Positions 1,752-31,987 of a stretch of 64,000 nucleotides of DNA are shown here, one piece after another; the first letter of the stretch is position 1, and every line of letters begins with the position of its first letter. The position numbers and the translations under genes were made by a program. The notes under the pieces were generated by a model. It did no database searches, was not told the origin of the DNA, and saw only the letters and a list, made by a program, of their open reading frames with translations. The DNA comes from Terriglobia bacterium (GTDB lineage Bacteria; Acidobacteriota; Terriglobia; Acidiferrales; UBA7541): positions 186,001-250,000 of the forward strand of contig JAIQFB010000001.1 of NCBI GenBank assembly GCA_020073485.1. The letters run 5' to 3'.

Positions 1752-1825
1752 TGGAGGCGCGGGGCGGGATCGAACCGCCGATAAAGGTTTTGCAGACCTT
1801 TGCCTTACCACTTGGCGACCGCGCC
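1752..1825 (-). tRNA. tRNA-Cys (GCA)
   Basis: Read on the minus strand, the 7-bp acceptor GGCGCGG (1825-1819) pairs with CCGCGCC (1762-1756). The anticodon stem AAGGT/ACCTT encloses the loop CTGCAAA with anticodon GCA. The T-loop GGTTCGATCC is present, and the discriminator is U73, typical of tRNA-Cys. The 3' CCA is encoded (1754-1752). Confidence 0.95.
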
Positions 1826-5000: not shown

Positions 5001-5409
5001 TCACCGCCAGTTCCAGGGCCGTGTCCTCCACGTTGATGGATTGCTGGATTCCCCCCAGCGCCAGCTTGAGGTTCACTTCCGCGCGCTGTCCGATCACGAG
5101 CGTGATACCGGTTCTGGCCTCGGCGCGAAAGCCGTCGCGTTCGGCATCCACTTCGTATGCTCCGACGGCGAGCGCGGGCGCGTCATAGCGCCCGGCGTTG
5201 TCGGTCGAGAGCGTGCGCACCGCCCCGGTCTCCACGTTCTTCACTTTCACCGTCGCGCCGGCGATTACGGCGCCGGTTTCATCGGTCACTGTGCCGTTGA
5301 TCGAAGCGTCTCCCTGCGCCCAAGCCATACCCTGGGGCAGCAAAAACAGAACCAGGTAAAAACTGAGTGTCGCTTTCCATACTCGATTGCCGATATCCCG
5401 CCGGGTCAT
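2038..5409 (-). CDS. Oar-type TonB-dependent receptor with carboxypeptidase-regulatory domain
   Basis: A 1,123-residue predicted outer-membrane protein. It has a signal peptide (residues 1-32, ending MAWAQG), a carboxypeptidase-regulatory-like Ig domain (~35-115, start INGTVTDETGAVIAGATV), a plug-like region (~125-260, NLPLNGRSYDQLL) and a long beta-barrel ending RQIQFGLKLLW with the terminal aromatic residue of outer-membrane barrels. The family is greatly expanded in Acidobacteriota; substrates are mostly unknown. The start at 5409 has an upstream AGGAGAGAG ribosome site. A cysteine-rich leader ORF and an intrinsic terminator lie 70-235 bp upstream on the same strand, suggesting attenuation control and a possible link to sulfur or cysteine supply. 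No partner SusD-like gene is present. Confidence 0.85.
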   Translation of the reverse strand: MTRRDIGNRVWKATLSFYLVLFLLPQGMAWAQGDASINGTVTDETGAVIAGATVKVKNVETGAVRTLSTDNAGRYDAPALAVGAYEVDAERDGFRAEARTGITLVIGQRAEVNLKLALGGIQQSINVEDTALELAVTTAEFSGLVGETQVKNLPLNGRSYDQLLTLNPGIVNYTSQRSGGTGTSNSVVGNMFSASGRRPQENLYILNGVEFTSASEVNNTPGGTSGQLLGVDAVREFSVIKDAFGAEYGKRPGAQVNIVTASGGNQLHGNAYEFLRNSVLDARNPFDSPHIPNFERNVFGGSLSGPIKRDKSFLFGNYEGFRQVLGLSDVALVPDGDGSTSAATGGARAGYLPCSALSTVPSNCNAATPLKNVGLASGISSLLNLWPVANGPELLTFTGLPSGIAENFSNPQQNIREDFGTARFDQIFSEKDSFAGVYTVDDSQSLSPTINPFSTVDVALREQVASLSETHLFSPSILNKVTFGFSRGAFYFNSGVAGAALSTPTAWLNTTLAPVPGAVVIGGGTTLNGASQLTNGGTNAGSNLHAVRNLFTATDQVSITHGIHLLNFGAWFERLQSNDSLIQDQYAQASFTNLQTFLQGTISTYTYAPSATPLSWRSLEGAFFVEDAIKLRPSFELRLGFRGEFTNGWNEAYGRAANYTFDPTTNVIQSQTGTGFPTLIGNSAFSVNNARFLPAPRAGIAWSPFGAKKTVIRAGAGVYYALVDNLSYRLDQNGPFNAVYAAKNVAVSTILNNATTNPVTPIAGAKVIPSGVQPNLQTPTVFSYDFKIERQILSNTILSVGYIGSHGYHEILSIDANVPGNVAICPASPCPSNYPAGAYFYFASAAAPFTGTPALANPNVANTTHWVSEGVSSYNGLEVDVNHTLSHGLQFRGVYTFSKALDDGDSMNTSVATNSPAFASNPLNPKQADYGRASFDIRHAAVINATYDLPFGRKSASGQNNWVNALAGNWQISGIETLLSGLPFTPQLSYNPANDGDSRNPVRPSLNPAFTGPIILGGPGRYFNPNAFVAPLPNTYGNAPRNFLVGPGLAETDFSVAKKFLLTERLSLQFRSEFFNIFNRTNLNNPNPVVFTSATSGPSPTAGVITSTTTTSRQIQFGLKLLW

Positions 5410-5478
5410 TGAATCTCTCTCCTGTGTTGTTTCCGCGCGTTCTCATCGCGCCTTGACTCGAATCCAAAAAATGTTCCC

Positions 5479-5522
5479 AAAAAGAAAAATCCCACCGCCA
5501 GATACGGTCTGGCGGTGGGATT
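5479..5522 (-). terminator. Intrinsic terminator/attenuator upstream of the Oar receptor
   Basis: On the minus strand the arm AATCCCACCGCCAGA (5522-5508), loop CCGTA and arm TCTGGCGGTGGGATT (5502-5488) form a perfect 15-bp stem, followed by the U-tract TTTCTTTTT (to 5479). It lies between the cysteine-rich leader ORF and the receptor start at 5409, the position of a transcription attenuator. Confidence 0.8.
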
Positions 5523-5551
5523 CTAGAATTGCTCGGCTTATGATCCGATTC

Positions 5552-5644
5552 CTAGAAGGTCAGCCTCCCGGCGCCAGAAGACACACACATACAGCAGGAA
5601 CAACACAGACAACCCTGCATGGTCTTCCGGACGTCGCGATTCAT
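5552..5644 (-). CDS. Cysteine-rich 30-codon leader peptide (putative attenuator uORF)
   Basis: A 30-residue ORF with ATG at 5644 and TAG at 5554-5552. Its residues 12-20 read CLCCSCCMC, six cysteines in nine positions. A TTGACA hexamer at 5682-5677 and TACCTT at 5659-5654 are spaced 17 bp, putting the transcript start only a few bases before the ATG, so the message would be near-leaderless. Codons 23-27 contain TCTGGCGCCGGGAGG (5578-5564), which can pair 7+4 bp with the 5' arm of the downstream terminator. This matches leader-peptide attenuation and resembles the leaderless polycysteine uORFs known from mycobacteria. Alternatively it could be a small metal-binding peptide. Confidence 0.6.
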   Translation of the reverse strand: MNRDVRKTMQGCLCCSCCMCVSSGAGRLTF

Positions 5645-5653
5645 AATTTGAAG

Positions 5654-5682
5654 AAGGTACAGGGACAATTTCCGAATGTCAA
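5654..5682 (-). promoter_or_regulatory. Promoter of the cysteine-rich leader ORF
   Basis: A perfect -35 TTGACA (5682-5677), a 17-bp spacer and TACCTT (5659-5654) as -10. The predicted start of transcription is near 5648, four bases from the leader ATG. Confidence 0.55.
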
Positions 5683-5720
5683 CTTTGTTTGGTCTTCGGT
5701 AGTGGGTCAATTTGCTTGGG

Positions 5721-5790
5721 AGGACAGGCACTCTTGCCTGTCCCTTGCAACTCGGCAGGGTCAACGCGGGCAGGCAAGAGTGCCTGTCCT
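5721..5790. repeat. Perfect 20-bp inverted repeat, GACAGGC family
   Basis: AGGACAGGCACTCTTGCCTG (5721-5740) and its exact reverse complement (5771-5790) are separated by 30 bp. Each arm is itself partly palindromic. It lies 8 bp past the histidine-kinase stop and may stabilise or end that transcript. A related element is at 15004-15078. Confidence 0.75.
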
Positions 5791-5798
5791 ACAAAAAA

Positions 5799-7190
5799 CT
5801 ACCCGCCATTCTTGCTTATCGGCAGGCGAACCTGAAACGTCGAGCCTTGCCCGGGAGCGCTCTCCACTTCAATAGTGCCGGCGTGTGCCTCGGCGATCCA
5901 TTTGCCGATGGAAAGCCCGAGGCCCGTGCCGCCAGTCTCCCGGGAGCGGGCTTTATCGGCGCGATAAAAACGCTCAAAGATATTGGGCAGGTCGGCGGCG
6001 GCGACGCCGATTCCGGTGTCGCGGATTTGCCCGATGGCGGTGCCGTTTTGCTCCATGATCGAAACTTCCACCGTTCCTTCGGATGGCGTGTACTTCACCG
6101 CGTTATCAATCAGAATCAGGAACAGCCTGCGAAGCAAATGCTCGTCGCCCTGAACCCACACCGGATGCCCCGGCAAGTTTTCGCGAAAGGATACATGCTT
6201 GCCTTCCGCCAGGGCGCTGCCTTGCGTGTCCACTTCGTGAACGATTTTCGACAGGTCCACGCGCGCAAACGGAATGGATTCCGCACCCGAATCGGTGCGC
6301 GCCAGGAACATCAGCTTCTCGATGAGTTCCGTCGTTCTTTCCAGTTCGGAGTGAATCTGCGCGACGGTATCCCGGTAGTCTTCCACCGAGCGGGCGCGGC
6401 GCAGCGAAAGTTCCGCCCGCGTGCGCATCACCGCCACGGGCGTGCGCAATTCGTGCGAAGCGTCGGCGGTAAACTGCGTGATTTTCTTGAAGGCCGTTTC
6501 CAGGCGCTCCAGCATGCCGTTGAGCGTTTCTGAAAGGCGCTGCAGTTCGTCTCCCGTGCGTGGCACCTCCAGCCGGCTCGACAAATTCTGCACGCTGATA
6601 TTTTTCGCCGTGCGGATAATCTGATCGACGGGATCGAGCGCGTGGCGGCTCATCCAATAACCGCCGAACGCCGCGCACAGCAGGAAAACCGGAATCGACA
6701 CCAGCAGCAATATCCGGATGCGATACAGGGCCGCGTTGTAATCGTCCATTTCGGTGGCCACCTGCACCAGATACGAATGATTTCCGGCGGTGACCACGCG
6801 GTCCAGCACGCGCAGGGGATCGTCTTTATACGGCAGGCCGTAGGCTTTCGCAGCAGGAGATTGCGGCCGCGGAACGTCCAGTTGGCTCATTTGCTCGGAA
6901 CGGTACAGCCAGTGGCCCTGCGCGTCCGACACCTGCAACAACTCGCCGCCAGTGCGCAGGTCGGAATGTTCGCGAAGGCTGTCTTCCAGATTCTCGGTGT
7001 AATCCACGCGGAAAGCGCGCTCGATGAGATGCTGGACGCCTTCGGAACGCGCCTGCAACTCTTCGTCCACGGTGATGTGAATACTCCGGCGCATGGCGAA
7101 ATAGGAGCTCACTCCAAAAAGAGTAAGAGCGAGCGCCAGCATCACCGAATACCAGAACGCCAGCCGGAGCCGCATGGAAATCGTTTTCAT
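5799..7190 (-). CDS. CusS-like sensor histidine kinase
   Basis: A 463-residue inner-membrane kinase with TM1 (~10-32), a periplasmic sensor loop (~33-157), TM2 (~158-180), a HAMP domain (~181-235), HisKA with FTADASHELRTPVAVMRT (His246), and an HATPase with N box DNAVKYTP, DTGIGV and GGTGLGLSIGKW. It overlaps the preceding response regulator by 4 bp (7187-7190), so the two form one transcription unit. The architecture matches the CusS/heavy-metal-type branch, but the sensor loop has no obvious Met/His metal cluster, so the ligand is unknown. Conserved operators near this locus (7898, 9472, 9537) suggest it controls the adjacent YncE-like and Oar genes. Confidence 0.9.
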   Translation of the reverse strand: MKTISMRLRLAFWYSVMLALALTLFGVSSYFAMRRSIHITVDEELQARSEGVQHLIERAFRVDYTENLEDSLREHSDLRTGGELLQVSDAQGHWLYRSEQMSQLDVPRPQSPAAKAYGLPYKDDPLRVLDRVVTAGNHSYLVQVATEMDDYNAALYRIRILLLVSIPVFLLCAAFGGYWMSRHALDPVDQIIRTAKNISVQNLSSRLEVPRTGDELQRLSETLNGMLERLETAFKKITQFTADASHELRTPVAVMRTRAELSLRRARSVEDYRDTVAQIHSELERTTELIEKLMFLARTDSGAESIPFARVDLSKIVHEVDTQGSALAEGKHVSFRENLPGHPVWVQGDEHLLRRLFLILIDNAVKYTPSEGTVEVSIMEQNGTAIGQIRDTGIGVAAADLPNIFERFYRADKARSRETGGTGLGLSIGKWIAEAHAGTIEVESAPGQGSTFQVRLPISKNGG

Positions 7191-7876
7191 GTCTTCGAGC
7201 TTTCGCGGATGGTGTAGCCCATTCCCCTCACGGTCTGAATCAGTTTTTCGCGCTGGTCCCGGTCGATCTTGCTGCGCAGCAGGCTGATAAAGGCGTCGAG
7301 CGTGTTTTCCTCCACGTCGTCGTCAAAATTCCAGATGGCCTGCACGATGGTGTTGCGGGATACGACGCGTCCCGCGCGGCGCATCAGAAATTCCAGCAGC
7401 CGGAATTCGGTGGGGCTGAGGTGAATCTCCTCTCCCGCGCGGGTGACCACGTGCGTCGCCGGATCCAGCACCAGATCCGCCACGGTCAGCAGCGTGGGAC
7501 GCGACGCCGAGCCCCGCCGCGAAATCGAGCGAAGCCGGGCCAGGAATTCCTCGAACGAAAACGGCTTGGTCAGATAGTCGTCGGCCCCGGCGTCGAGTCC
7601 CTTCACGATGTCAGGCACGGCGTCGCGCGCGGTGAGCATCAGGATCGGCGTTTCGTTCCGGCCCTTTCTCAGCCTGCGGGCCACTTCGTAGCCGTCCATA
7701 TCCGGCAGCATCAGGTCCAGGACGATGGCATCAAATTCGTAGTCCTGCGCGATCTCCAGCCCCGTGCGGCCGTCGTGGGCCACGCTCACCGAATGGTTTT
7801 CCTCTTCCAGCCCCTTTTTGAGTAGTGCTGCCATTTTCTTTTCGTCTTCCACGATCAGGACGCGCATCAGTCTCAA
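7187..7876 (-). CDS. OmpR/CusR-family response regulator
   Basis: A 229-residue DNA-binding regulator. The receiver domain (~4-120) has acidic pocket residues EDE, phosphoacceptor Asp54 (VLDLMLPDMDG) and Lys in LTKPF. The winged-helix Trans_Reg_C domain (~130-225) ends TVRGMGYTIR. An internal ATG at 7867 (MRVLIVEDE) is an equally plausible start. It is translationally coupled to the kinase through a 4-bp overlap. Its promoter region carries TTTCAG-N5-ATTCAGG, the direct-repeat format bound by OmpR-family dimers, implying autoregulation. Confidence 0.92.
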   Translation of the reverse strand: MRLMRVLIVEDEKKMAALLKKGLEEENHSVSVAHDGRTGLEIAQDYEFDAIVLDLMLPDMDGYEVARRLRKGRNETPILMLTARDAVPDIVKGLDAGADDYLTKPFSFEEFLARLRSISRRGSASRPTLLTVADLVLDPATHVVTRAGEEIHLSPTEFRLLEFLMRRAGRVVSRNTIVQAIWNFDDDVEENTLDAFISLLRSKIDRDQREKLIQTVRGMGYTIRESSKT

Positions 7877-7882
7877 CCTCTA

Positions 7883-7915
7883 ATTCAACCATTAAAACCT
7901 GAATATTGACTGAAA
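7883..7915 (-). promoter_or_regulatory. Operator A plus -10 of the response-regulator operon
   Basis: On the minus strand, TTTCAGTCAATATTCAGG (7915-7898) contains two TTCAG half-sites with an 11-bp period. Nine bases further lies TTGAAT (7888-7883), a -10-like hexamer. The element is shared with 9489-9472 and 9537-9554 and is the probable binding site of the adjacent OmpR-family regulator. Confidence 0.65.
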
Positions 7916-8202
7916 TCACCACGAAAAACTCCGTTGCACGGTTCTTCTAAGTGTTTTCCATGTTGCTGGTTTATCCGGCTGGCCAAGGCCAAAGCGCAGA
8001 GGCGGGAATCATTATAGCGCGGGACAAACGGCGCGAAGACCAATGAGGGTTGGCGCGAACAGGCGGGCGAGGAGCTGTGTGAAGCTCCGCCGATCATCTC
8101 CCGCTTACGCTTTCGTGATGCATTCAAATTCAGGAAGGATTGCCCCTATAAACCGGAACGGAAAAGTGAGCAGCAAGCGCCTGGGAATTTTGAAACCCAG
8201 GA
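7916..8202. other. Intergenic region, no gene
   Basis: Between the response regulator and the YncE-like gene, both on the minus strand. There is a weak hairpin (CCTGGG...CCCAGG, about 8181-8202) just past the YncE stop without a clear U-tract. No further feature was recognised. Confidence 0.45.
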
Positions 8203-9237
8203 TCAATCCCGCGTTTCGTAAAACCACAGCTCCGCGGGTCTGCCGGCGCGCGCCGGAACCGCTAAGTACAAGGTGTTGTGTTTTCCCACCTGGCCGAAGT
8301 ACGCACTGGTGCGCGCGCCGATTTCGGTGGGAATCTTGGCGATGCGTTCGTACTTGTCCGGATCGATTTGCTGATAAACAAAAATGAAACCTTCGCCGCT
8401 GGGGACGTAGATGCGCTTGCGGTCGGCGTCGTACCACATGTCATCCGTGTCGGCCGCGCCCGGAAGGCTGGCAACCGTTTTTCCCGTGTCCATATCCAGC
8501 ACCAGCAGGCGCGCCGGCCTGCGCGCTGCGACGAACAAGCGGCGATGCGCCTCGTCGAGAGCCATGGGGAAGTTTGTCCCCGCCTCCTCGAGCTTCCATT
8601 TTTCGATTTTATGTGTGTTCCGGTCAATCACGGCGATCTGATTGATGGAGGCCAGATTGACGAAGATTTTCGGGCCTTTTTCCTCCAATTGAAACGATTC
8701 CGGGTGCGCGCCGACCACGAAATCGCCGGGGATTCGCTTGTTGGTGGTTGCGTCGAACACGCCGATGGCGCCTTCGGCATCGTCTCCGTACCCGACGTAT
8801 ACCCGTTTCGTGGCGGGGTCGTAACGAAGCTGATCCGCATCCTCCGTATACTTGACGCTATCGAGCAGTTTGTAGGTGTCGGCGTCGAAGATTTTGCACG
8901 ACCCATCGATTTCATTCGAGACCACAATCCGGTTGGAATCGGGAAGGTAAAGCGCCATTTGCGGCCTCCCGAATCCGGGATCCTTCATGATTTGGATTCG
9001 CTTGCCTCTCTGCACATCCAGGACTTGCACGGAGTCGTCTCCGTAGACGGCGGCAAATACCCGGCCACTGCGGTTGTCCACCGCCATGTGGTCAAACCGG
9101 CCCTCAACGCCGGGCATCGGGACGATCCGCGCCAGGAACAGCGGCGCGAATTCGTCATTGGACGGAGGTTGCTGTGCGGCGACGCTTACAGCGATTGCCA
9201 GGCCCACGACCAAAAATGAGATGTGACGTTTCCTCAT
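8203..9237 (-). CDS. YncE-like/YVTN beta-propeller protein, exported
   Basis: A 344-residue protein with a signal peptide (~1-21, ending AVSVAAQQ). The rest is repeated propeller blades with patterns such as VLDVQRGKR, IFDADTYKLLD, GVFDATTNKRIPG and VLDMDTGKTVASLPG. This is the YncE/surface-layer propeller superfamily, usually periplasmic or surface-associated; no catalytic residues can be assigned. The long leader (~210 nt) starts at a minus-strand promoter carrying operator B. It is divergent from the second Oar receptor, which has operator C, so the pair is likely co-regulated by the two-component system next door. Confidence 0.8.
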   Translation of the reverse strand: MRKRHISFLVVGLAIAVSVAAQQPPSNDEFAPLFLARIVPMPGVEGRFDHMAVDNRSGRVFAAVYGDDSVQVLDVQRGKRIQIMKDPGFGRPQMALYLPDSNRIVVSNEIDGSCKIFDADTYKLLDSVKYTEDADQLRYDPATKRVYVGYGDDAEGAIGVFDATTNKRIPGDFVVGAHPESFQLEEKGPKIFVNLASINQIAVIDRNTHKIEKWKLEEAGTNFPMALDEAHRRLFVAARRPARLLVLDMDTGKTVASLPGAADTDDMWYDADRKRIYVPSGEGFIFVYQQIDPDKYERIAKIPTEIGARTSAYFGQVGKHNTLYLAVPARAGRPAELWFYETRD

Positions 9238-9456
9238 GTTGCCTCCGAAGCTGAATTCCTAGCGGCTCGCGCTGGCGAAGGTTACCAGAGAGTTTGCCAG
9301 CGGGCCAGGGCGGGCCGTCGAGCGCCCCATCGAGTTTGGGCTCGTGATCCTACGGCGTAGCCTGCGCTGCGCCATTTGGCACCTGTAGGGACGGGGCAAA
9401 AAACAGCGATTCAAACGCAACTCGACTGGCCGGCGAACTTGCCGCTCAGCGTCTCG

Positions 9457-9489
9457 ATTGGAGCACTTGAACCTGAATGTTAACTGAAA
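9457..9489 (-). promoter_or_regulatory. Operator B plus -10 for the YncE-like gene
   Basis: Minus strand TTTCAGTTAACATTCAGG (9489-9472), two TTCAG half-sites 11 bp apart, then 9 bp, then TCCAAT (9462-9457). Same element and spacing as operators A and C. Confidence 0.6.
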
Positions 9490-9536
9490 TCGCAGCCCCG
9501 AATTGAGTTTTAGAAAATCGGAAACATTGGTGAAAC

Positions 9537-9569
9537 TTTCAGACTTCATTCAGGTTGGATTCGTATACT
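9537..9569 (+). promoter_or_regulatory. Operator C plus -10 for the second Oar receptor
   Basis: TTTCAGACTTCATTCAGG (9537-9554) is followed after 9 bp by a strong -10, TATACT (9564-9569). The downstream half-site takes the place of a -35 element, as at PhoB/OmpR-activated promoters. The resulting leader is ~240 nt. Confidence 0.65.
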
Positions 9570-9815: not shown

Positions 9816-12800
9816 ATGGGGAGTGTAACCGGGCGGTCGGAACCAGGCAGCCTTGTCGTGAGTCGGGCCTGTGACGACTGGAGCCGCGCGAGGCTCCCCC
9901 GGCTGGGTTCAAATGGAATGCCTATTTTCGCTGCGCTGTTGGCTCTTTTGGTGTGGTTCGCGACGCCGCGCCCGGTCAACGCGCAAGTTGCCGGGGGATC
10001 GATCACCGGCACGGTACGAGGAGAATCCGGCGCCGCCATCCCGGACGTCCGAGTATCGATCGCGGACGTGACTTCCAATGTGACCAGAACCGTCACCACG
10101 GACACGAGCGGCTTTTATAACGCGCCCGCCCTGCCTCCAGGAAACTACGAGATGACGGTTTCGTCCCCCGGATTTGTCACTCAGGTAATTACATCGATTA
10201 CTGTTGCGGTAGGCAGCGAACGCGTACTCAACGTCGTCATGCAGGTGGGCAAGCCGGAAACCATCGTGCGCACAGCAGCCCCTGTCGCGCCAATAAGTCA
10301 GGCATCTTCCTGCTGCGGTGGAAGCGCCAGCGCCTCCACCGTGCGCGACACGCCTCTGAACGGACGAGACTGGGCCCAACTGGCAACCTTGCAGGCCGGT
10401 GTCACGGGGGTTCAGTCCACCGGAGGCAATACCGACCGCGGCTTTGGGGCGGCCATCAGCATTTCCGGATCGCGGCCTGACCAGAACAGCTATCGCCTGG
10501 ATGGAATCAGCATCAATGACTATGCAAATGGCGCCCCTGGGAGCGTGCTGGGCGATAACCTGGGAATTGACGCCGTGGAACAAGTATCCGTGTTGGGAAG
10601 CAACTACCCAGCCGAGTATGGACGCACTTCCGGCGGGGTAATCAACGCGGTTACCCGGTCCGGGAAGAACGCCTTCCACGGCACGGCATATGAATTTCTC
10701 CGCAACAGCGCTCTGGATGCCCGAAATTTCTTCGATGGCCCGATCATTCCTGCCTTCAAGCGCAACCAATTCGGGGGTTCGGCGGGGGCGCCGATCCGCA
10801 AGGATCGCACGTTCATCTTCGGAGACTATGAAGGGTTGCGCCAATCGCTGGGTGTGACCACCGTGGATACCGTGCCTTCGGTGGCAGCCCGCAGCGGCCA
10901 GCTTTCCACGGGAACAGTGAGCGTGGACCCCGCGGTAGCCAGGTTTCTCGCGGCTTTCTATCCTTTACCGAATGGATCGTCGCTTGGCGCGGGCGACACT
11001 GGAATCTATAACTTCGCCGCGCAGCAAGTGACCACGGAAAATTATTTCACGATTCGCCTGGATCAAAAATTGTCGGATAAAGACGCCTTCTCCGGCACGT
11101 ACATGCGCGACAAGTCACAGACCGTGCAGCCGGGCACGTTCGGCGAACTCTTTTCCACCGTGCAATCGGCGCGTGAAGTGGCCACTCTGCACGAGCAGCA
11201 TATTTTCGGCCCCACTTTGCTGAATGCCGCCGGCTTCGGCTTCAGCCGCGCCGTTGCGGTAATAGGAAAAGTTGCGCGTGTCACAAACCCTCTGATGAAC
11301 GACAGCTCTTATGCATTCGAACCTGGAGGGTTTGCAGGGTCGGTGGAGGGTGTACCCGGACTCACAAACTTTCTAGGCGCTCCACTGCCCAATGGTTTTA
11401 TCCCATCCAGCAAATCCGTCGCCTGGAACTCATTTCAGGGAAGCGACGACGTCTATTTGACCCGCGGAATCCACGCCCTGAAGTTCGGAGCGATGGTCGA
11501 ACGGATGCAGGACAACCAGTTGACCAGCAGCAACGCCAATGGATCGTACCGTTTCAATTCCTTACAGAGTTTTCTGACCAACGTGCCGCAATCCTTCGCG
11601 GGCAATGCCTCGGTCTCTTCACCCGATTATGGGATGCGTCAGACACTATTCGGCGCCTATGTTCAGGATGACATCCGGCTGCATAAAGACCTGACATTCA
11701 ACGCCGGGTTGCGCTATGAAATGGTGACGGTGCCGACCGAGGCGCATAATCTGCTTCCCAATCTGCGCAATCTTTCCGACGCGACGGCCGTTATCGGGCC
11801 GCCCTTATTCAAGAACCCGACGCTCCGGAATTTCGAGCCGCGCGTCGGGTTTGCCTGGAATCCACGCGGAGGCAAGACTCTTTTGCGCGGGGGATTTGGA
11901 GTTTTTGATGTCTTGCCGCTTCCCTACGAATTCACGATCACCATCCAGCACTCGCAACCGTTTGTAAACGAGATTTTTGCGAATGTTCTTTCCCCGGGCG
12001 ATTTTCAATTGTGCGGATCCCAGACCGGCGGCTGCCAAACCAGCGCATTCGAAAAAGCGAAGGGCGTGCCGGGCTTTTCACGCTCCAACTACGTTCAGTA
12101 CGATCCCAAGCGCAATTACGTGATGCAATGGAATCTGAGCGTGGCACAGCAGCTGTCTTCGACGCTGGCCGTCACGCTCGGCTACGTCGGCTCGCGGGGG
12201 GTTCACCAGCCCTACCGCGTCGACAACATTGACATGGTCCTTCCGACCCTTACCGCGGCAGGGTACATGTGGCCTTGCGGGCCGAATGGCACCCCCGGTA
12301 CCACATGCGCGATCGGATTTTTGCCGCAGGGCACACAGGCCAATCCCAGGCCCAGCGTCACGCTCAACCCCAACTACGGCCGAATCACCGGGTCTTTCTG
12401 GCAAGCGGATTCTTTTTACGATGCATTGCAGGCGAATATTACAAAACGCGTCAGCCATGGCTTTCAGTTCAGCGGGGCTTACACCTGGGGGAAGAGTATC
12501 GATACGCTTTCCTCCACGGAAGCAAACGATGCTTTTCCCAACGGGCTTTTCAACCAACTCTATTTCGACCAGCGAACTACCCGGGGGCTTTCGGATTTCA
12601 ACGTGGCGCAGACGTTTGTTCTAAACGTGACTTGGGAGATACCCGGTCCGAAGGCCGGCTCCGCTCTTCCAGCGCTCCCGAAAATGGTTTTGAGCGGGTG
12701 GCAGTTGGTTGGGCTTTACAAGGCCAGTACCGGGCAGCCTTTCACACCGATATTTGGCGGCGACCCTCGGGGAATGAAACTGGAAGAGACTGGCGAGATG

Positions 12801-13259
12801 CCGAGCCGTATTACTGGTCCTGGTTGCGATACGCTAACCAATCCCGGAAACCCCAACCATTACATCAAGACGCAATGCCTGACTCTTCCCACGGCGCCGA
12901 GTTCTTTCGCGGCCCAGTGCGCGCCCTTTCCCGGGGCCGTAGGGCCTCTGCCGGCCGGCACGGTGTATTGCGCGAACCTGGCGGGCAACCTCGGCCGGAA
13001 TACCTTGATCGGTCCGGGACTGTCGAAACTGGATTTCTCCGTATTCAAAAATAACTATGTGAAGCGCGTCTCGGAAAGCTTTAACGCCCAGTTCCGGGCG
13101 GAATTTTTCAATATCCTGAACCGCGCGAACTTTGCTTCGCCGACGGACAACTTGGCGGCATTTGACCAAAGCGGCGAGGCCATTTCCAGCGTGGGCCTGA
13201 TCACCACCACGCAGACAACGTCGCGCCAGATTCAATTTGCGCTGAAGATTATTTGGTAG
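9816..13259 (+). CDS. Oar-type TonB-dependent receptor with carboxypeptidase-regulatory domain
   Basis: 1,147 residues from 9816, or 1,113 from an internal ATG at 9918 that begins directly at a signal peptide (MPIFAALLALLVWF, cleavage near VNAQ). The GGGAGGGGAC ribosome site favours 9816; signal-peptide placement favours 9918. The carboxypeptidase-regulatory domain follows (start ITGTVRGESGAAIPDV), then a plug-like region (NGRDWAQLATLQAGV, with a CCGG motif just before) and a long barrel ending RQIQFALKIIW. It is predicted to be an outer-membrane receptor; substrate unknown. Operator C upstream links it to the CusRS-like pair. A nine-haem cytochrome follows 101 bp downstream on the same strand, so the two may share a transcript. 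Confidence 0.85.
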   Translation: MGSVTGRSEPGSLVVSRACDDWSRARLPRLGSNGMPIFAALLALLVWFATPRPVNAQVAGGSITGTVRGESGAAIPDVRVSIADVTSNVTRTVTTDTSGFYNAPALPPGNYEMTVSSPGFVTQVITSITVAVGSERVLNVVMQVGKPETIVRTAAPVAPISQASSCCGGSASASTVRDTPLNGRDWAQLATLQAGVTGVQSTGGNTDRGFGAAISISGSRPDQNSYRLDGISINDYANGAPGSVLGDNLGIDAVEQVSVLGSNYPAEYGRTSGGVINAVTRSGKNAFHGTAYEFLRNSALDARNFFDGPIIPAFKRNQFGGSAGAPIRKDRTFIFGDYEGLRQSLGVTTVDTVPSVAARSGQLSTGTVSVDPAVARFLAAFYPLPNGSSLGAGDTGIYNFAAQQVTTENYFTIRLDQKLSDKDAFSGTYMRDKSQTVQPGTFGELFSTVQSAREVATLHEQHIFGPTLLNAAGFGFSRAVAVIGKVARVTNPLMNDSSYAFEPGGFAGSVEGVPGLTNFLGAPLPNGFIPSSKSVAWNSFQGSDDVYLTRGIHALKFGAMVERMQDNQLTSSNANGSYRFNSLQSFLTNVPQSFAGNASVSSPDYGMRQTLFGAYVQDDIRLHKDLTFNAGLRYEMVTVPTEAHNLLPNLRNLSDATAVIGPPLFKNPTLRNFEPRVGFAWNPRGGKTLLRGGFGVFDVLPLPYEFTITIQHSQPFVNEIFANVLSPGDFQLCGSQTGGCQTSAFEKAKGVPGFSRSNYVQYDPKRNYVMQWNLSVAQQLSSTLAVTLGYVGSRGVHQPYRVDNIDMVLPTLTAAGYMWPCGPNGTPGTTCAIGFLPQGTQANPRPSVTLNPNYGRITGSFWQADSFYDALQANITKRVSHGFQFSGAYTWGKSIDTLSSTEANDAFPNGLFNQLYFDQRTTRGLSDFNVAQTFVLNVTWEIPGPKAGSALPALPKMVLSGWQLVGLYKASTGQPFTPIFGGDPRGMKLEETGEMPSRITGPGCDTLTNPGNPNHYIKTQCLTLPTAPSSFAAQCAPFPGAVGPLPAGTVYCANLAGNLGRNTLIGPGLSKLDFSVFKNNYVKRVSESFNAQFRAEFFNILNRANFASPTDNLAAFDQSGEAISSVGLITTTQTTSRQIQFALKIIW

Positions 13260-13360
13260 CCGCTGCGCTCGCTGCAACTTTTCCTAACCTGTTGCGCGAT
13301 GGAAACAGGCCCGGATAGAGACAAGGTTTACCGCGGATTTGCGAGAAGCCGGAGGGGAAT

Positions 13361-15007
13361 ATGAACAAGTGGAAAGCGCTGGTTCTATTGTTCATCGCTG
13401 TCGTCATTCTCTCTGCGCTCTACGGAGCCGCCGTGATCCGGCGCGGATTCAGCGCTGTCGACCAGCCGTCTTCGCTGGAGAAAGCCGTGGCGCGAGCCGT
13501 CCGGGATCTGGGAATCCCGGGCACCGCGCGAGACGCGAAGAATCCGTGGCCCCCCGCTCCTGAAACGTTGCAGCAAGCGCGCGAGGATTTCACGAATCAC
13601 TGCGCGGGCTGCCACGGCAAGGATGGCGACGGCCAAACAGGAATCGCCCGGAACCTTTATCCCAAGGCGCCTGACTTGCGCTTGCCGGCGACGCAGAATC
13701 TCACCGACGGTGAAATTCATTACATTATTACAAACGGCGTGCGCCTCACGGGGATGCCCGCGCTCGGCAATCCGCACATGTCCGAGGACGACAACACCGC
13801 GTGGAAGCTGGTCCTGTTCATTCGCTCAATTTCCGGGACTTCGCCGCAGGAAAAAGCGGAACAAACGGCCGCGATTGGCGCGGCGCACTATGTGGGCTCG
13901 GCCGCCTGCCAGAAATGCCACACGCAGCTTTACGACAACTGGAAGAAAACGCCCATGGCCAATGTGGTGCGCGACCCGCGCGAGCATCCCGATGCCATCA
14001 TTCCGGATCTGGCTACGAACAACGTCAGCAAGAAATTCACCAAGGACGATGTTGCGTTTATCTACGGGAGCATCTGGAAGCAGCGCTATTTCACCAAGGT
14101 CGGCGACGACTATTTTCCGCAGTCCGCGCAATGGGACGTGGTCCACAAGAAGTGGCTTCCTTATATGGCGGCGAACGGCGCGGACTGGTGGGTGCCGTTT
14201 TATCCTCCCGATAATTTCAAACGGCCCACCGGACCCACGTGTGATGGCTGCCACTCGGTCGACTACAACATTCAGACCAAGCAGGTTGCCGAGTGGAACG
14301 TCGGCTGCGAGGCCTGCCACGGACCGGGCAGCGCGCACGTGGAGCACGGCGTGCGCGGCAACATTCTAAATCCCGCGCGCATGGATCCAGTCAGCGCCAA
14401 CGACACCTGCATTCGATGCCATTCGCAGGGCCGGCCGCTCACCAGTCCCATCCAGGGACAATATTACGATTGGCCGGTCGGCTACCGCGTGGGGCTGAAC
14501 CTGAGGGATTATTGGCAGCTGGAAGATCACAAGCTGGGCGAGCTGAGCTTCACGCATTTTCCGGACGGCACCGCGCACAAAAACCGCATGCAGGGTAACG
14601 ATTTCGCGCAGAGCCTGATGTACCGCCGCGGCGTCATGTGTTCCGACTGCCACGATGTGCACGGCACGGGCAATTACGCGCAGCTCCGCAAGCCCGCCAA
14701 TCAGATTTGCCTGGATTGCCACGGGCCCGGCTCTCGAAACGGCCCGCGCGGCGCGACTCTCGCCGAGCACACCCATCACAAGGACGGCTCGGCGGGCAGC
14801 GAGTGCGTGGCCTGCCATATGCCGAAAATCGAGGCGGAGATTCCCGGCGTGTTTGTGAGCGCGCACACGTTCGGGTTCATCCCCCCGTCCATGACCGACA
14901 AGTACAAGATTCCGAATCCGTGCACGTCGTGCCACACGGACAAGACCACCGCCTGGGCCGCCGATGCCATGCGGCATTGGCCCGATCAATCGCCCTGGCG
15001 GCAGTAG
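13361..15007 (+). CDS. Membrane-anchored nine-haem c-type cytochrome
   Basis: 548 residues. An N-terminal anchor (~5-25) is followed by a mono-haem cytochrome c domain (CAGCH at 81-85, axial Met likely in LTGMPALG). A multihaem module comes next with eight more CXXCH sites: CQKCH, CDGCH, CEACH, CIRCH, CSDCH, CLDCH, CVACH and CTSCH. The fold resembles the cytochrome c554/doubled-CXXCH group, which transfers electrons in the periplasm or at the cell surface. The start at 13361 has GGAGGGGAAT upstream. The stop codon lies inside the repeat at 15004-15078. Its position behind the operator-controlled Oar receptor suggests a link between uptake and redox. Electron donor and acceptor cannot be read from sequence. 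Confidence 0.85.
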   Translation: MNKWKALVLLFIAVVILSALYGAAVIRRGFSAVDQPSSLEKAVARAVRDLGIPGTARDAKNPWPPAPETLQQAREDFTNHCAGCHGKDGDGQTGIARNLYPKAPDLRLPATQNLTDGEIHYIITNGVRLTGMPALGNPHMSEDDNTAWKLVLFIRSISGTSPQEKAEQTAAIGAAHYVGSAACQKCHTQLYDNWKKTPMANVVRDPREHPDAIIPDLATNNVSKKFTKDDVAFIYGSIWKQRYFTKVGDDYFPQSAQWDVVHKKWLPYMAANGADWWVPFYPPDNFKRPTGPTCDGCHSVDYNIQTKQVAEWNVGCEACHGPGSAHVEHGVRGNILNPARMDPVSANDTCIRCHSQGRPLTSPIQGQYYDWPVGYRVGLNLRDYWQLEDHKLGELSFTHFPDGTAHKNRMQGNDFAQSLMYRRGVMCSDCHDVHGTGNYAQLRKPANQICLDCHGPGSRNGPRGATLAEHTHHKDGSAGSECVACHMPKIEAEIPGVFVSAHTFGFIPPSMTDKYKIPNPCTSCHTDKTTAWAADAMRHWPDQSPWRQ

Positions 15008-24428: not shown

Positions 24429-25139
24429 ATGAAACGAGTTTTGCTGATCGAAGACGACCGCGACATTGTCGAGCTGGTCCGCTACAACCTGGAACGTGAA
24501 GGGTTCCAGGTCGCCGCAGCCAGTGACGGCGCAACCGGGCTGGCGCAAATCCGCAAGACGCCTCCCGATATTCTGCTGCTCGACCTGATGCTGCCGAAAT
24601 TATCCGGCCTGGATATCTGCAAGGAAATCCGTCGCGATCAATCGCTCAATCGCCTGCCCATCCTGATGCTCACGGCGCGCGGCGAGGAAGCCGACCGCGT
24701 CGTGGGCCTCGAAATGGGGGCCGATGATTACGTCACCAAGCCGTTCAGCCCGCGCGAATTGGGCGCCCGGGTAAAAGCCCTTCTGCGCCGCACCGAGCCC
24801 GCCGGGGAAGCGCCCCGCGTGATCGAATCGCGAGGCTTGACCATCGATCCTTCCTCCTACCGCGTCACGCATGACGGCCAACCGGTGACGCTGTCGACGC
24901 TGGAGTTCCGCCTGCTCTATTACCTGGCGACTCGCCCGAATCGCGTGTTCACCCGCGACCAGTTGCTGGACGCCGTCTGGGGCACTGAGCGATTTGTGAC
25001 GCCGCGCAGCGTGGACGTTTACATCCGCCGTCTGCGCGAAAAAGTGGAAACCGACGCGGACCATCCTTCTTTTTTGAAAACGGTGCGCGGCGCGGGATAC
25101 ATGTTTGAAAGCGCGGCGCAGATGGTGAGACAGGAGTGA
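24429..25139 (+). CDS. phoB: PhoB-type phosphate response regulator
   Basis: 236 residues of the OmpR/PhoB family. The receiver domain (~1-120) has acidic pocket IEDD, phosphoacceptor Asp52 (LLLDLMLPKLSG) and Lys in VTKPF. The winged-helix domain (~133-230) has STLEFRLLYYLA and TVRGAGYMF. The histidine kinase starts 8 bp after the stop, and phoU-pstSCAB lie 3 kb downstream, so the phosphate role is well supported. 7-bp direct repeats at 24331-24348 suggest it binds its own promoter. Confidence 0.93.
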   Translation: MKRVLLIEDDRDIVELVRYNLEREGFQVAAASDGATGLAQIRKTPPDILLLDLMLPKLSGLDICKEIRRDQSLNRLPILMLTARGEEADRVVGLEMGADDYVTKPFSPRELGARVKALLRRTEPAGEAPRVIESRGLTIDPSSYRVTHDGQPVTLSTLEFRLLYYLATRPNRVFTRDQLLDAVWGTERFVTPRSVDVYIRRLREKVETDADHPSFLKTVRGAGYMFESAAQMVRQE

Positions 25140-25146
25140 ACCCTTC

Positions 25147-26511
25147 GTGCCCGTAAGCCCATTCCGGCGGCTGGGGATGCTCTACCTGGCGCTGGTTGCG
25201 GCCATTTTGATCGCCGTGGAAGTGGCCGCGCCGGGTACCCTTGCCCGGATTTTTCCGGCCCTGCTGGTGATTCTCCTGGTTTCTGGATTTCTATCCATTC
25301 TGTTTCTGCGCTCGGTCGCCGCGCGCATTCGCCGTCTGAAACAATTCGCGGACCGCGCCGCTGCCGGCGATTTCACACCGCTCGAAAAAGATCATGGCCG
25401 CGATGAACTGGCGGACCTGGCGCAGGCGCTGGGCGGCACCGTGGCACAGCTCGGGCAATCCATTCACACGCTGACCGAGGAACGCAACCGCTCGGCGGCC
25501 ATCCTGGGCAGCATGGTCGAGGGCGTGGCCGTGGTGGCCGGGGACGAAAGAATTTTGTATTGCAATCACGCTTTCGAGCAAATCCTGGAACTGCCGGAGG
25601 GAAGCTCGCAAGGGAAAAAATTAGTGGAGGCCCTGCGACAAGTGGAGCTGGTGGCCGCCGTGCGACAGGTGCTTCCCGGGGGCGAGGAAGTTACCGGCGA
25701 AGTCGAGGTCGGCACAGTGCGCCCGCGCAGCTTCGCCGTCACCGCAGCCCCGGTGCAGGCCACGGGAGTCAAGAGCGCGGTGCTCGTGCTTCACGACATT
25801 ACGGAATTGCGGCGCCTGGAGCGTGTGCGGCGCGATTTCGTGGCCAACGTATCGCACGAATTCAAGACGCCCCTGACGGCCATTCAGGGATTTGCCGAAA
25901 CCCTGCTCGGTGGCGCGCTTGAGGACAAGGCTAACCGCGCGCATTTTGTGGAAATTATCCGCGATCACGCCCGCCGCCTGGCGCGCCTCACCGACGATCT
26001 GTTGAAGCTTTCACGAATTGAAGCCGGACGCCTCGAACTGGAGTTGCGCCCAGTGCGCGTGGCGGCGCTGGTGAACGGCTGCGTCGAGACGGCGCGCCTG
26101 AAGGCCGAGGCCAAGGGCTTGCGCATCCACGTGCAATTGCCGGATGGCCTCCCGCCGGTTCGCGCCGATGGCGCGCAATTGGGAGAGGTGCTGCAGAACC
26201 TGCTCGACAACGCAACGCAGTACACGCCGCCCGGCGGGCAAATCGACGTGACCGCCACGTCGAATGGAGACGGAGTCACTTTCACCGTCGCCGACACAGG
26301 AATCGGCATTCCGGAATCCGACCTGGAGCGCATCTTTGAGCGCTTCTACCGCGTCGATGCCGCCCGGTCCCGCGAAGCCGGCGGTACCGGCCTCGGCCTG
26401 GCCATCGCCCGCCACATCGTGGACGCCCACGGCGGCCGCATCTGGGTGGAAAGCGCCGTCGGGCAGGGCTCCCGGTTTCATTTCCGCATCCCTTCCGCCG
26501 CGCCTTTATAG
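25147..26511 (+). CDS. phoR: PhoR-type phosphate sensor histidine kinase
   Basis: 454 residues, GTG start 8 bp after phoB. Two N-terminal membrane helices (~10-28, ~35-55) with almost no periplasmic loop match PhoR, which senses through the Pst complex and PhoU. HAMP-like linker (~56-108), PAS domain (~113-220), HisKA with FVANVSHEFKTPLTAIQGFA (His237), HATPase with DNATQYTPPGGQ, DTGIGIPESD and GGTGLGLAIARH. The last 6 bp overlap the convergent DUF6152 gene. Confidence 0.93.
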   Translation: MPVSPFRRLGMLYLALVAAILIAVEVAAPGTLARIFPALLVILLVSGFLSILFLRSVAARIRRLKQFADRAAAGDFTPLEKDHGRDELADLAQALGGTVAQLGQSIHTLTEERNRSAAILGSMVEGVAVVAGDERILYCNHAFEQILELPEGSSQGKKLVEALRQVELVAAVRQVLPGGEEVTGEVEVGTVRPRSFAVTAAPVQATGVKSAVLVLHDITELRRLERVRRDFVANVSHEFKTPLTAIQGFAETLLGGALEDKANRAHFVEIIRDHARRLARLTDDLLKLSRIEAGRLELELRPVRVAALVNGCVETARLKAEAKGLRIHVQLPDGLPPVRADGAQLGEVLQNLLDNATQYTPPGGQIDVTATSNGDGVTFTVADTGIGIPESDLERIFERFYRVDAARSREAGGTGLGLAIARHIVDAHGGRIWVESAVGQGSRFHFRIPSAAPL

Positions 26512-26883
26512 ATCAGGTAGTTCCTTGCCGTCCGCCTTCACGATTTTTTGCAGGCGCATGAAGAACGTTCCGTTCTTGGTTCGATGACCGTAGAACGTGA
26601 TCACGTCGCCGACCTTGATCGTGTTCCTGTCCCATCCGCCGTATCTGGACAACATGGAAGGGCTTCTGGCTTCGCCCATCCAGGTTTCGATTTCGCCCTT
26701 GTCATTTTTCACGCTCAGCGTGATTTGCACGTGAGGATTGACGAACTCGAATTGCGTCACGGTTCCCTTGATGGAGACGGTTTTCTCCGTATCGTAATTG
26801 GCCTCTCCATGATGCGCCGACAGCGTGGCGGGATTAAAAACAAAGCAAACTATCGTGGCCAAAAAGAGCGCAAATTTCTTCAT
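26506..26883 (-). CDS. DUF6152-family exported small protein
   Basis: 125 residues with a signal peptide (~1-23, ending TLSAHHG). The mature part is a predicted small beta barrel: KTVSIKGTVTQFEFVNPHVQ, then LTLSVKNDKG-like strands, RYGGWDRNTIKVGDVITFYG, and FFMRLQKIVKADGK. An AGGAGG ribosome site precedes the ATG. It commonly neighbours the following type of exported protein in Acidobacteriota (general recollection, not checked). Function unknown. Its 3' end overlaps the convergent phoR by 6 bp. Confidence 0.75.
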   Translation of the reverse strand: MKKFALFLATIVCFVFNPATLSAHHGEANYDTEKTVSIKGTVTQFEFVNPHVQITLSVKNDKGEIETWMGEARSPSMLSRYGGWDRNTIKVGDVITFYGHRTKNGTFFMRLQKIVKADGKELPDL

Positions 26884-27033
26884 TCCGAACCTCCTGAAAG
26901 CGCCAATCAGACGTAGAGGCTTGATGATTACAAGGGCCGTGCCGCGCCAGGAAAGCGGGTTACCAAAAATATCTACTCCGATCCAAGCTATGTCAATGCC
27001 GAAATCGGCGCCAACGCGCGATGACAGCCGCTC

Positions 27034-27813
27034 CTACTTCTCCGGTGACGCTTCCTTTTTTTCGAGCCCCAGGAAGGTCTCGCCATCCTCACAAAACTGT
27101 TCCGTCAGTTTCCAGGGCCTCAATTTGAATTCCAGGCGCGCCGTCCAGGGTCTCGTGTACGCCTTGGGATCCTCGACGGTGATGTCGTCCACCAGGTGAT
27201 CGTGGGCCGTCCGCCGGAATCGCTCGATCAAGTGCAGTTGGTCGCTGTGCGGGTGGCCGACACGGTCCAGCCAGGTCTTATCATTGAAATTCACGGTGTC
27301 GACCACCAGTGTGTCGCCCTCCCAGTGCCCGATCGAATCTCCCATCCACAAGGGAACCAGACTTTCATCATGCGGTTTCCCATCGGTGTAAATCTCGCGC
27401 CGCAGGGAATCGACCTCGAAGAGCATCACGACTTCACCGCGCGTTTGAATAAATTGAAAGGGGAAGGGATGCATGTAAACGCGCGGCACGCCAGGCGGAA
27501 AACAGCCGCGCAATACGGGATCGTTCGTTTCCTCGAGCGGATACATATGAGCACCAAAGGAGGACTTGGCCGCTTTGAATTGCGCCTCGCCCCAGGCCGT
27601 CATGGGCGGTTCCTCTTGATTGAGCTCATAAATCCAGTACTGCATTGCGTTCGCAGGAGGAGCGTCGCGCATCCATACACCCGACAAGTCGCCTGTTTTG
27701 CTTGCGCTTGCGGGCTTTGCCGGCGCGGCCGGCTTTGAGGATTGCGCGGAGGCGCTCGCGGAACAACCCCATGCGATCACGAGTCCAAGAAAAACGCCCA
27801 GCAAACGATTTCG
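27034..27813 (-). CDS. Exported hypothetical protein
   Basis: 259 residues starting at MRNRLLGVFLGLV (ATG 27813, preceded by GGGGGG); a further upstream ATG at 27891 would put 26 residues before the signal peptide and is disfavoured. The signal peptide ends near SASASAQ and an Ala/Pro/Lys linker follows. The conserved body has DLSGVWMRDAPP, GCFPPGVPRVYMHPFPFQF, MGDSIGHWEGDTLVVDTVNF, SDQLHLIERFRRTAHDHL and DPKAYTRPWTARL. I recognise this pattern from unnamed acidobacterial families co-located with DUF6152 genes, but no activity is known. The Gly/Trp/Glu/Asp-rich core suggests a beta fold. Confidence 0.65.
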   Translation of the reverse strand, partial: RNRLLGVFLGLVIAWGCSASASAQSSKPAAPAKPASASKTGDLSGVWMRDAPPANAMQYWIYELNQEEPPMTAWGEAQFKAAKSSFGAHMYPLEETNDPVLRGCFPPGVPRVYMHPFPFQFIQTRGEVVMLFEVDSLRREIYTDGKPHDESLVPLWMGDSIGHWEGDTLVVDTVNFNDKTWLDRVGHPHSDQLHLIERFRRTAHDHLVDDITVEDPKAYTRPWTARLEFKLRPWKLTEQFCEDGETFLGLEKKEASPEK

Positions 27814-28033
27814 CATTTGCGACCCCCCAATCTTCAGACGTGCCTTTTCAGAGGTGACTTTAGCGGGGATTATACACTGCCGATTCCGCAAGAAGATCAG
27901 AGGAAAATCTCAATCAGTGAGCCAAATTGCTTTCTTAGTATAGCCATGTTGGCTGCTCGTTCGGGCTTCTCGGCGCGACGGGTCGGGGCCTCCAATTTCC
28001 GAATCCAGGCTTGAATCAACTAAGTCGCCGGAT

Positions 28034-28062
28034 ATTCACCCCCGTTTCACACCGTTTTCACA
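28034..28062 (+). promoter_or_regulatory. Putative triple PHO box before phoU
   Basis: ATTCACC (28034-28040), TTTCACA (28045-28051) and TTTCACA (28056-28062) have an exact 11-bp period (7 + 4 spacing), as in PHO boxes. Located 52 bp before the phoU start. Confidence 0.6.
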
Positions 28063-28113
28063 TACCGAACGTAACCTCGATGGCGCACGGGAGTCCCGGC
28101 CCAAGGCGGAGAC

Positions 28114-28836
28114 ATGGCGACCTCGGTATCCAAGGTACAAACGATTTATCAGGATGTGCTGGCCAACTATTTAATTTCCATGGCCCGCACGGTCGAGAAC
28201 AGCGTGGAGATTGCCCTCGACGCGCTGCTACGGCCCAATCTGGACGCGGCGAATGCGCTGTCCAGCAAGGTGTTTCTGGTGGAGCCGCGCATCAATGAGA
28301 TGGAAATTCTGATCGACGACCATGCCGTGCGCATGCTGCGCACCGGCCTTCTGGATGACGAGGAAATCCGCCGCGTCGTGGCCACTCAGAAAATCGCCAA
28401 CGACCTGGAGCGCATCGGCGATCTGGCGGTGAACATCTCGGAACGCGTGATTTCATTGGCTGGAATGAAAGTGGCCGAAATGCCGCGGGACCTCGAACCC
28501 ATGACCGGCGCGGTTCGCGGAATGCTCGGCCGCAGCCTGGGTGCGCTGATTTTCCGCAATGTGGTGCTGGCCAGCGAAGTTCTCGAATCCGACGACGTCG
28601 TGGACCGCTATCGCGACCAGATCTTCGAACACTTGCTCGCGGGGATGACCGCGGAGCCCTCGCAGGTCGCGCCGCACATGCAGTTTGTGCTGGCTACGCG
28701 TTACCTGGAACGCATCGCGGATCACGCCACAAATATCGCCGAAGACATTATTTTCTGGGTGCGTGGTTTGGACGTGCGGCACGGACGCGCGCGGCTCAAC
28801 GTGGATGAAGTCAATTATCCGGAAAAAAGAGCCTGA
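28114..28836 (+). CDS. phoU: PhoU-family phosphate regulator (first copy)
   Basis: 240 residues, all-helical, with the duplicated PhoU metal-binding signatures: ATQKIANDLERIGDLAVNISE (~90-110) and ATRYLERIADHATNIAEDI (~195-215). PhoU bridges the Pst transporter and PhoR to silence the Pho response when phosphate is plentiful. GGCGGAGAC precedes the ATG. It sits upstream of pstS rather than after pstB, and a second phoU occupies the usual position. Confidence 0.92.
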   Translation: MATSVSKVQTIYQDVLANYLISMARTVENSVEIALDALLRPNLDAANALSSKVFLVEPRINEMEILIDDHAVRMLRTGLLDDEEIRRVVATQKIANDLERIGDLAVNISERVISLAGMKVAEMPRDLEPMTGAVRGMLGRSLGALIFRNVVLASEVLESDDVVDRYRDQIFEHLLAGMTAEPSQVAPHMQFVLATRYLERIADHATNIAEDIIFWVRGLDVRHGRARLNVDEVNYPEKRA

Positions 28837-28856
28837 ACCGCGCTGCCGATATCTCT

Positions 28857-28878
28857 GCGGGCTCCAAGTAGAGCCCGC
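28857..28878. repeat. GCGGGCTC palindromic unit
   Basis: GCGGGCTC (28857-28864)/GAGCCCGC (28871-28878), 6-nt loop, 21 bp after the phoU stop. Same family as 1832-1914. No U-tract, so its role as a terminator is doubtful. Confidence 0.55.
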
Positions 28879-29019
28879 ACCTGATTTCGCGCCGAACGAC
28901 GACCTTCGTGTTGCAACCCCACCCCGGGCCGATGCTCCCCTGGCATCGGCCCATCCTCTTTTTTGCGGCAACATGCAGAAACTAAGGCAGTTGCAGCGAA
29001 ATGCCGGCTTTTACGCCCG

Positions 29020-29048
29020 GATCACCACCTTGTAACATGGCTGTAACA
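29020..29048 (+). promoter_or_regulatory. Putative PHO box before pstS
   Basis: Identical 7-mers TGTAACA at 29031-29037 and 29042-29048 (11-bp period), with GATCACC at 29020-29026 in the same phase. 40 bp upstream of the pstS ATG. Confidence 0.65.
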
Positions 29049-29087
29049 ATTAAGAGTCAGAATCCACCTGCGAATCTAGGAGAGAAC

Positions 29088-30113: not shown

Positions 30114-30147
30114 CGCTTCGCAACCGGCCAGAGCCGGATCCTACGAA

Positions 30148-31985: not shown

Positions 31986-31987
31986 CG

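Follow-up and report, generated by a model that had tools for sequence, protein, structure and literature searches.

The question raised by this locus is whether an 18-bp element, present in three copies beside a two-component regulatory operon, is the operator at which the response regulator (RR) encoded by that operon acts, and if so what else that regulator might control. The stretch of DNA analysed (referred to here as the window) is 64 kb long and forms part of a source genome of 5.05 Mb in 46 contigs (labelled G000), the whole of which was scanned. A reading made from the sequence alone had proposed that the three copies define a local regulon, in which the RR would activate its own operon, an exported propeller protein, a receptor and perhaps a multihaem cytochrome. 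The features concerned are collected in Table 1.

Table 1. Window coordinates of the operator copies, the hexamers that follow them and the genes discussed in the text.
Feature	Position	Strand	Remarks
Sensor histidine kinase (HK), CztS/SilS/CopS type	5799..7190	minus	4-bp overlap with RR gene
OmpR/PhoB-family response regulator (RR)	7187..7876	minus	ORF from TTG
-10-like hexamer TTGAAT	7883..7888	minus	9 bp past operator copy 1; weak, 4/6 to TATAAT
Operator copy 1 (RR/HK promoter)	7898..7915	minus	TTTCAGTCAATATTCAGG; 13/13 specified positions
Exported YncE-like beta-propeller protein	8203..9237	minus	Predicted regulon member; operator copy 2
-10-like hexamer TCCAAT	9457..9462	minus	9 bp past operator copy 2; weak, 4/6 to TATAAT
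Operator copy 2 (YncE-like promoter)	9472..9489	minus	TTTCAGTTAACATTCAGG; 13/13 specified positions
Operator copy 3 (second Oar-like receptor promoter)	9537..9554	plus	TTTCAGACTTCATTCAGG; 13/13 specified positions
-10-like hexamer TATACT	9564..9569	plus	9 bp past operator copy 3; 5/6 to TATAAT
Second Oar-like receptor (CarboxypepD_reg + OMP_b-brl_4)	9816..13259	plus	Predicted regulon member; operator copy 3
Nine-CXXCH multihaem cytochrome	13361..15007	plus	CXXCH count by eye; possible read-through target

The core of the element in the window is TTTCAG-N5-ATTCAGG (18 bp), and in all three copies TT follows directly after CAGG, giving 15 positions common to them. Each copy lies at the coordinates and on the strand that the sequence-only reading had given, each has its TTCAG half-sites 11 bp apart, and each is followed after exactly 9 bp by the -10-like hexamer reported there. 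The genes named as lying downstream in the right orientation are likewise in place: copy 1 ends 22 nt upstream of the RR ORF (counted to its TTG start; an ATG lies 9 nt further on), copy 2 ends 235 nt upstream of the YncE-like ORF and copy 3 ends 262 nt upstream of the second Oar-like ORF.

By its domain content the RR belongs to the OmpR/PhoB family, scoring above cut-off for both PF00072 (receiver, 109 bits) and PF00486 (Trans_reg_C winged helix, 95 bits); its conserved start, MRVLIVEDE, is at the ATG, the first base of which is 7867, and its recognition helix is VEENTLDAFISLLRSKID. The kinase passes the cut-off of TIGR01386 (CztS/SilS/CopS heavy-metal kinase; 309.2 bits, cut-off 292.55), while the RR scores below the cut-offs both of its best NCBIfam model, TIGR01387 (CztR/SilR/CopR heavy-metal RR; 246.3 bits, cut-off 279.2), and of TIGR02154 (PhoB equivalog; 216.1 bits, cut-off 296.2). 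Its full-length matches in the PDB are headed by 1kgs, followed by PhoP chains (9ji3, 3r0j/5ed4) at 184.6 bits. The Asn of the helix ENTLDAFISLLRSKID is kept in every RR that has the operator upstream (18 sequences aligned), and this is the residue that we take, by our own alignment, to match Asn212 of PhoP.

Taken alone, the evidence from the 1.7-kb stretch that holds the three copies is modest. In dinucleotide shuffles of this 1,687-bp stretch, carried out as a post-hoc test of the repeat, three copies with 13 invariant columns arose in 7 of 700 cases (0 of 60 in a separate run), so that on window evidence the three-copy repeat is an event of about 1%; core matches with up to three mismatches are not over-represented in the 64-kb window (15 against 13.4 expected). 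The proposal presupposed a motif that is not common across the genome, and this is what a search of all 5.05 Mb with the 18-mer found: there are just three exact matches to TTTCAG-N5-ATTCAGG, all of them the window copies. Five further sites match the core with one mismatch (on contigs C15, C23, C40, where there are two, and C42), but these were dropped as regulon members because TANNNT at +9 is absent in all of them. When 61 related genomes were searched there were 14 exact core matches, as against none for a reversed control. Six of these precede members of the regulon gene set; the other eight lack TANNNT at +9, and seven of the eight have no relative of seven window proteins alongside, while the last (in genome G005, contig C7) lies about 330 nt before a weakly YncE-like stretch. 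These eight are best seen as chance occurrences.

It is comparative genomics that, at the level of sequence, turns this modest evidence into strong evidence. Orthologues of the RR were fetched without reference to the motif, and 34 RR loci were examined. Where the RR is at least 66% identical, a core site with no more than one mismatch lies within 250 nt upstream in six loci of eight (L009, which is the window itself, L010, L011, L012, L014 and L054); of the remaining two, L013 has a site with two mismatches and L097 has an operator before a DUF1259 gene that precedes the RR gene. Where the RR is at most 60.1% identical, none of 26 loci has a core site with two or fewer mismatches upstream. 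A longer pattern, TTTCAG-N5-WTTCAGG-TT-N7-TANNNT, was set from sites already seen; among the 61 relatives this extended site occurs with at most one mismatch in all eight genomes with a listed RR (or RR fragment) of at least 62% identity and in none of the 53 others, a count that ignores kinship, and is weakened by shared ancestry, in genomes that also hold many other RRs.

In G001, G002 (at two loci), G023, G132, G345 and G227 the operator stands before the RR gene at the place that it has in the window. The order of genes among motif-bearing RR loci differs: in G001 and G002 the cytochrome gene is divergent from the RR gene, in G023 an array of YncE-like genes follows the kinase gene, and in G011 a DUF4159-RR-HK group faces a YncE-Oar pair. 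Despite such rearrangement the sites are still found before the same kinds of gene, and the association with orthologous RR/kinase, YncE-like, Oar-like and nine-haem cytochrome genes thus extends to other genomes in which the loci are rearranged. Twelve loci (222,336 bp in total; 11 chosen by RR similarity or as the window, and one, L050, by the motif) contain 33 sites with two or fewer mismatches, 24 of which lie within 450 nt upstream of an RR, YncE-like, Oar-like or cytochrome-type gene; in 14 of these 24 the repeat is followed at offset 9 by TANNNT, and any other offset is found at most twice (leaving out the two sites of L050, the corresponding count is 12 of 22). In G005, the closest relative (98% identity in the RR), the copies at the RR gene (two mismatches, twice) and at the gene for the second Oar-like receptor (two mismatches) are degenerate, and the main YncE gene of the RR locus has no copy at two or fewer mismatches; contig C37 of the same genome carries two exact copies before YncE-like genes. 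YncE-like genes also stand in tandem, at least five to a locus and several with operators, in G005 (C37, L050), G023 (C74, L056) and G011 (C145, L174), and may represent a growing family of secreted propellers linked to the TTCAG-operator regulator.

The extended pattern was scanned in 13 genomes and then in 399 genomes of the class Terriglobia, where with at most one mismatch it gave 35 matches in 25 genomes; the reversed control, for which counts only are available, gave nine matches in three genomes, two of which belong to a single genus and account for eight of the nine. Altering the half-site spacing reduced the 35 matches found at 11 bp to one at 10 bp and six at 12 bp (two of these being simple repeats), as would be expected of an OmpR/PhoB-type operator, i.e. 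a direct repeat of 11-bp period. Together with the offset counts given above, this means that both the 11-bp period and the 9 bp to the -10 element, features first noticed in three copies, are strongly preferred.

Genes of the regulon type follow 31 of the 35 matches: RR/HK in six cases, DUF4159 in two (one being DUF4159-RR-HK), YncE-like in 12, Oar-like in six, cytochrome or DUF1259-cytochrome in two, efflux in two and DUF5916 in one. These 31 include some softer positives, namely G372 (where a 148-aa ORF without a Pfam family precedes the YncE-like gene), a propeller only 25% like that of the window (G001, contig C114) and G032 (DUF4159 with no adjoining RR). In sample (the 13 genomes) all 16 matches are of this kind; out of sample (386 genomes) there are 19 matches in 17 genomes, 15 of them before regulon-type genes (three RR/HK, five YncE-like, one of these after the 148-aa ORF, four Oar-like, two efflux and one DUF5916). 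The efflux cases are L229 (TolC and an RND pump) and L224 (HlyD, then MacB-like ORFs). The gene-context control consists solely of the seven altered-spacing matches, and by BLAST alone not one of them lies before a relative of the seven window proteins used as queries. The four matches left unassigned are in G215 (which runs off its contig), G175 and G190 (before unrelated or unknown genes) and G368 (857 nt before an HlyD gene). The description of the regulon as local is too narrow, since elsewhere its members are scattered over the genome and efflux pumps are among them.

Because the same switch recurs before the same kinds of gene in related bacteria, the element is very probably the binding site of the neighbouring regulator itself, marking a previously uncharted set of genes under common control. 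The mechanism envisaged is that two RR molecules would bind head-to-tail on the two TTCAG half-sites (each a 7-bp motif plus a 4-bp spacer, giving the 11-bp period), and that the bound dimer, with the operator occupying the -35 position and ending 9 bp before the -10 element, would recruit RNA polymerase in place of -35 recognition. Given the PhoP-like direct-repeat geometry and the position of the operator, class II-type activation of this sort is the interpretation that fits best; at the sequence level, the fixed distance to the -10 element that it implies is seen in the 14 of 24 sites with TANNNT at offset 9. The trigger would presumably be phosphorylation by the cognate kinase, and the targets in the window would be the RR/kinase operon itself, the exported YncE-like propeller and the second Oar-type receptor, with the nine-haem cytochrome reached by read-through in the window and through its own operator in relatives. 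Taken as a whole, from operator and tandem dimer to activation of regulator, propeller, receptor and cytochrome, this model is considered probable.

The cytochrome deserves separate comment. Its gene starts 101 bp past the second Oar-like receptor gene, and a direct operator was rejected as the intervening gap (13260-13360) contains no site even at three mismatches, so that in the window any control would have to come from transcripts reading through from the receptor gene. In G002 the cytochrome gene has an operator of its own, and in G023 it lies in an operator-bearing DUF1259-cytochrome operon. For the first Oar gene no operator was found in 5410-5800, where there are instead a TTGACA-like/TACCTT-like promoter, a Cys-rich leader peptide and a terminator-like hairpin. 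The short ORF concerned, encoding MNRDVRKTMQGCLCCSCCMCVSSGAGRLTF (window 5409-5640, minus strand), lies after this promoter and before the hairpin, upstream of the first Oar-like gene, and has the look of an attenuator with a Cys-rich leader peptide. The peptide is kept in G005, and each of the five other genomes of the genus that were searched has similar stretches at E ≤ 0.01. Elsewhere in the window, a tRNA gene at 1755-1825 (minus strand) is the sole Rfam match in the first 30 kb.

As regards the direction of control, it may be that the sites are real operators but that the RR represses or fine-tunes its own promoter, activating only at its target genes. In the window the RR start codon is 15 nt after the hexamer TTGAAT, so a transcript from this promoter would be nearly leaderless, and at most orthologous RR copies the hexamer is likewise not of the TANNNT form (TTTGAT, TCTGAT, TGAAAT or GAGAAT at the matching place), with the start codon 8–19 nt further on, whereas the YncE, Oar and cytochrome genes carry TAGGCT, TAAGCT or TATACT. 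With hexamers that are often poor and start codons so close, either the RR/HK mRNAs have almost no leader or the site acts differently here. Against repression or fine-tuning it can be said that the RR copies keep the 9-bp register, that those of L218 and L221 have good hexamers (TACTCT and TATTCT), and that leaderless mRNAs would in themselves resolve the promoter geometry; repression or fine-tuning at the RR promoter is regarded as unlikely, though it deserves to be taken seriously. Autoregulation through the predicted operator copy 1 could accordingly be upward or downward, given the weak -10 element, the near-leaderless geometry and the degenerate copy in G005. A different possibility is that the operator is read by another regulator, such as a paralogue from the OmpR family of RRs, of which the genome has dozens (47 RR-like matches were scored in G000), and that the RR/HK operon is merely a target. 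Related sites, ATTCAG-N5-TTTCAGG before an RND pump gene and ATTCATG-N4-ATTTCAGG, turn up repeatedly in the genus at places away from this RR, so a TTCAG-type half-site may be common to several regulators; there are two RR/HK pairs in L221, and RRs of only 56–60% identity adjoin several of the distant matches, so paralogues may share the operator. What makes this rather improbable is that the extended operator tracks this RR subclade (the 8 of 8 against 0 of 53 already described), although many other RRs are present in the same genomes.

Two further readings fare much worse. The conserved TTCAGG-TT and TANNNT blocks do look like a bipartite promoter, as for an alternative (ECF-type) sigma factor, but the hexamer lies 9 bp from the second TTCAGG and 21 bp from the first TTTCAG, neither of which fits a -35/-10 spacing, while a direct repeat with its period fixed at 11 bp is what marks the site of a tandem RR dimer; a sigma-factor promoter was rejected on this spacing and is very improbable. 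That the repeat arose by chance and has no function might be argued from the 1% of shuffles that equal it and from the exact core matches in other genomes that sit in unrelated places without a -10 element, but this is contradicted by the way in which the element is conserved across the class together with gene identity, period and -10 distance, and it is scarcely credible. A palindromic box of the CusR type was also rejected, the half-sites being direct rather than inverted; CusR and HprR boxes are inverted repeats.

Some related but differently spelled sites should be recorded here. ATTCAG-N5-TTTCAGG precedes an AcrB-type RND pump gene by about 130 nt in G000 (C20:57456-57488) and in G005 (C114:42033-42065), and a variant repeat (ATTCATGTAAATTTCAGGTT in G000) followed by a TA-rich hexamer is found in four genomes of the genus (G000, C5:126944; G005, C34; G002, C462; G001, C62), being followed in G002 by an ABC transporter gene. 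The variant of the C5 type is possibly the operator of a paralogous regulator, and the recurrence of such sites would suggest paralogous regulators with similar half-sites. As members of the present regulon the weaker sites of the source genome on C20 (before the RND pump), C5 (whose G002 counterpart precedes the ABC transporter) and C40 (before malate synthase) are suggestive only, and the last of these is an argument that weak matches lack specificity.

The Acidobacteriota, which abound in soil, encode many Oar-type receptors in each genome, and few transcription-factor regulons are known to have been mapped in them. In the literature searched, neither the operator sequence nor its regulator nor the target set was found; the architecture, that of an OmpR/PhoB-type direct-repeat regulon, is known. 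YncE and TonB genes have been reported in a conserved xoxF3 gene cluster common to Acidobacteria, the relevant part of that report mentioning no regulator (PMC10875860). A predicted operator of fixed architecture assigns targets to an orphan regulator and predicts start sites, and through it receptors and propellers whose role is unknown are connected with genes for efflux and electron transfer. One might go further and propose a Terriglobia-wide regulon in which a heavy-metal-type two-component subclade, acting through a TTCAG-N6-TTCAG operator and with a leaderless RR/kinase mRNA, would turn one signal into a joint envelope response, switching on Oar receptors, multiplied secreted YncE-like propellers, a multihaem cytochrome, DUF1259/DUF4159/DUF5916 proteins and RND/MacAB-type efflux; this wider proposal is tentative, its chances being put at slightly less than even.

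One of the known systems most like this one is PhoP of Mycobacterium tuberculosis: its operator, TCACAGC-N4-TCACAGC, is a 7-bp direct repeat with a strict 4-bp spacer, bound by a tandem dimer whose recognition helix reads TCACAGC via Asn212 among others (PMC4832192). The present element shares the 7-bp plus 4-bp direct repeat, a CAG in each half-site, a regulator of the OmpR family and the retained helix Asn, but it has TTCAG in place of CACAG, the kinase type and the targets differ, and the RR is only moderately similar. The pho box of PhoB replaces the -35 element and ends about 10 bp before the -10, and the operator described here occupies the same position, ending 9 bp before the -10. The likeness extends to the 11-bp direct repeats, of which the E. 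coli pho box has two, each with a 7-bp conserved and a 4-bp segment (PMC2648988), but not to the half-site (CTGTCAT for PhoB) or to the regulator (216 bits against the PhoB cut-off of 296), and the window has separate PhoB- and Pst-like ORFs. These lie at 24429-33666, where N-terminal sequences indicate a PhoB-like RR, a kinase and PhoU-like and Pst-like ORFs, and by that evidence the region is an ordinary phosphate region, apart from the TTCAG-operator regulon. With CusRS/CopRS/CzcRS the system shares a kinase of the TIGR01386 type (309 against 292.55 bits), an RR whose best model is TIGR01387 and, in relatives, an operator before TolC/RND efflux genes, CusR itself being known to regulate an adjoining efflux operon (PMC8249747); it is unlike them in that the RR falls under the TIGR01387 cut-off (246 against 279), the operator is a direct repeat and the main targets are YncE-like and Oar-like genes.
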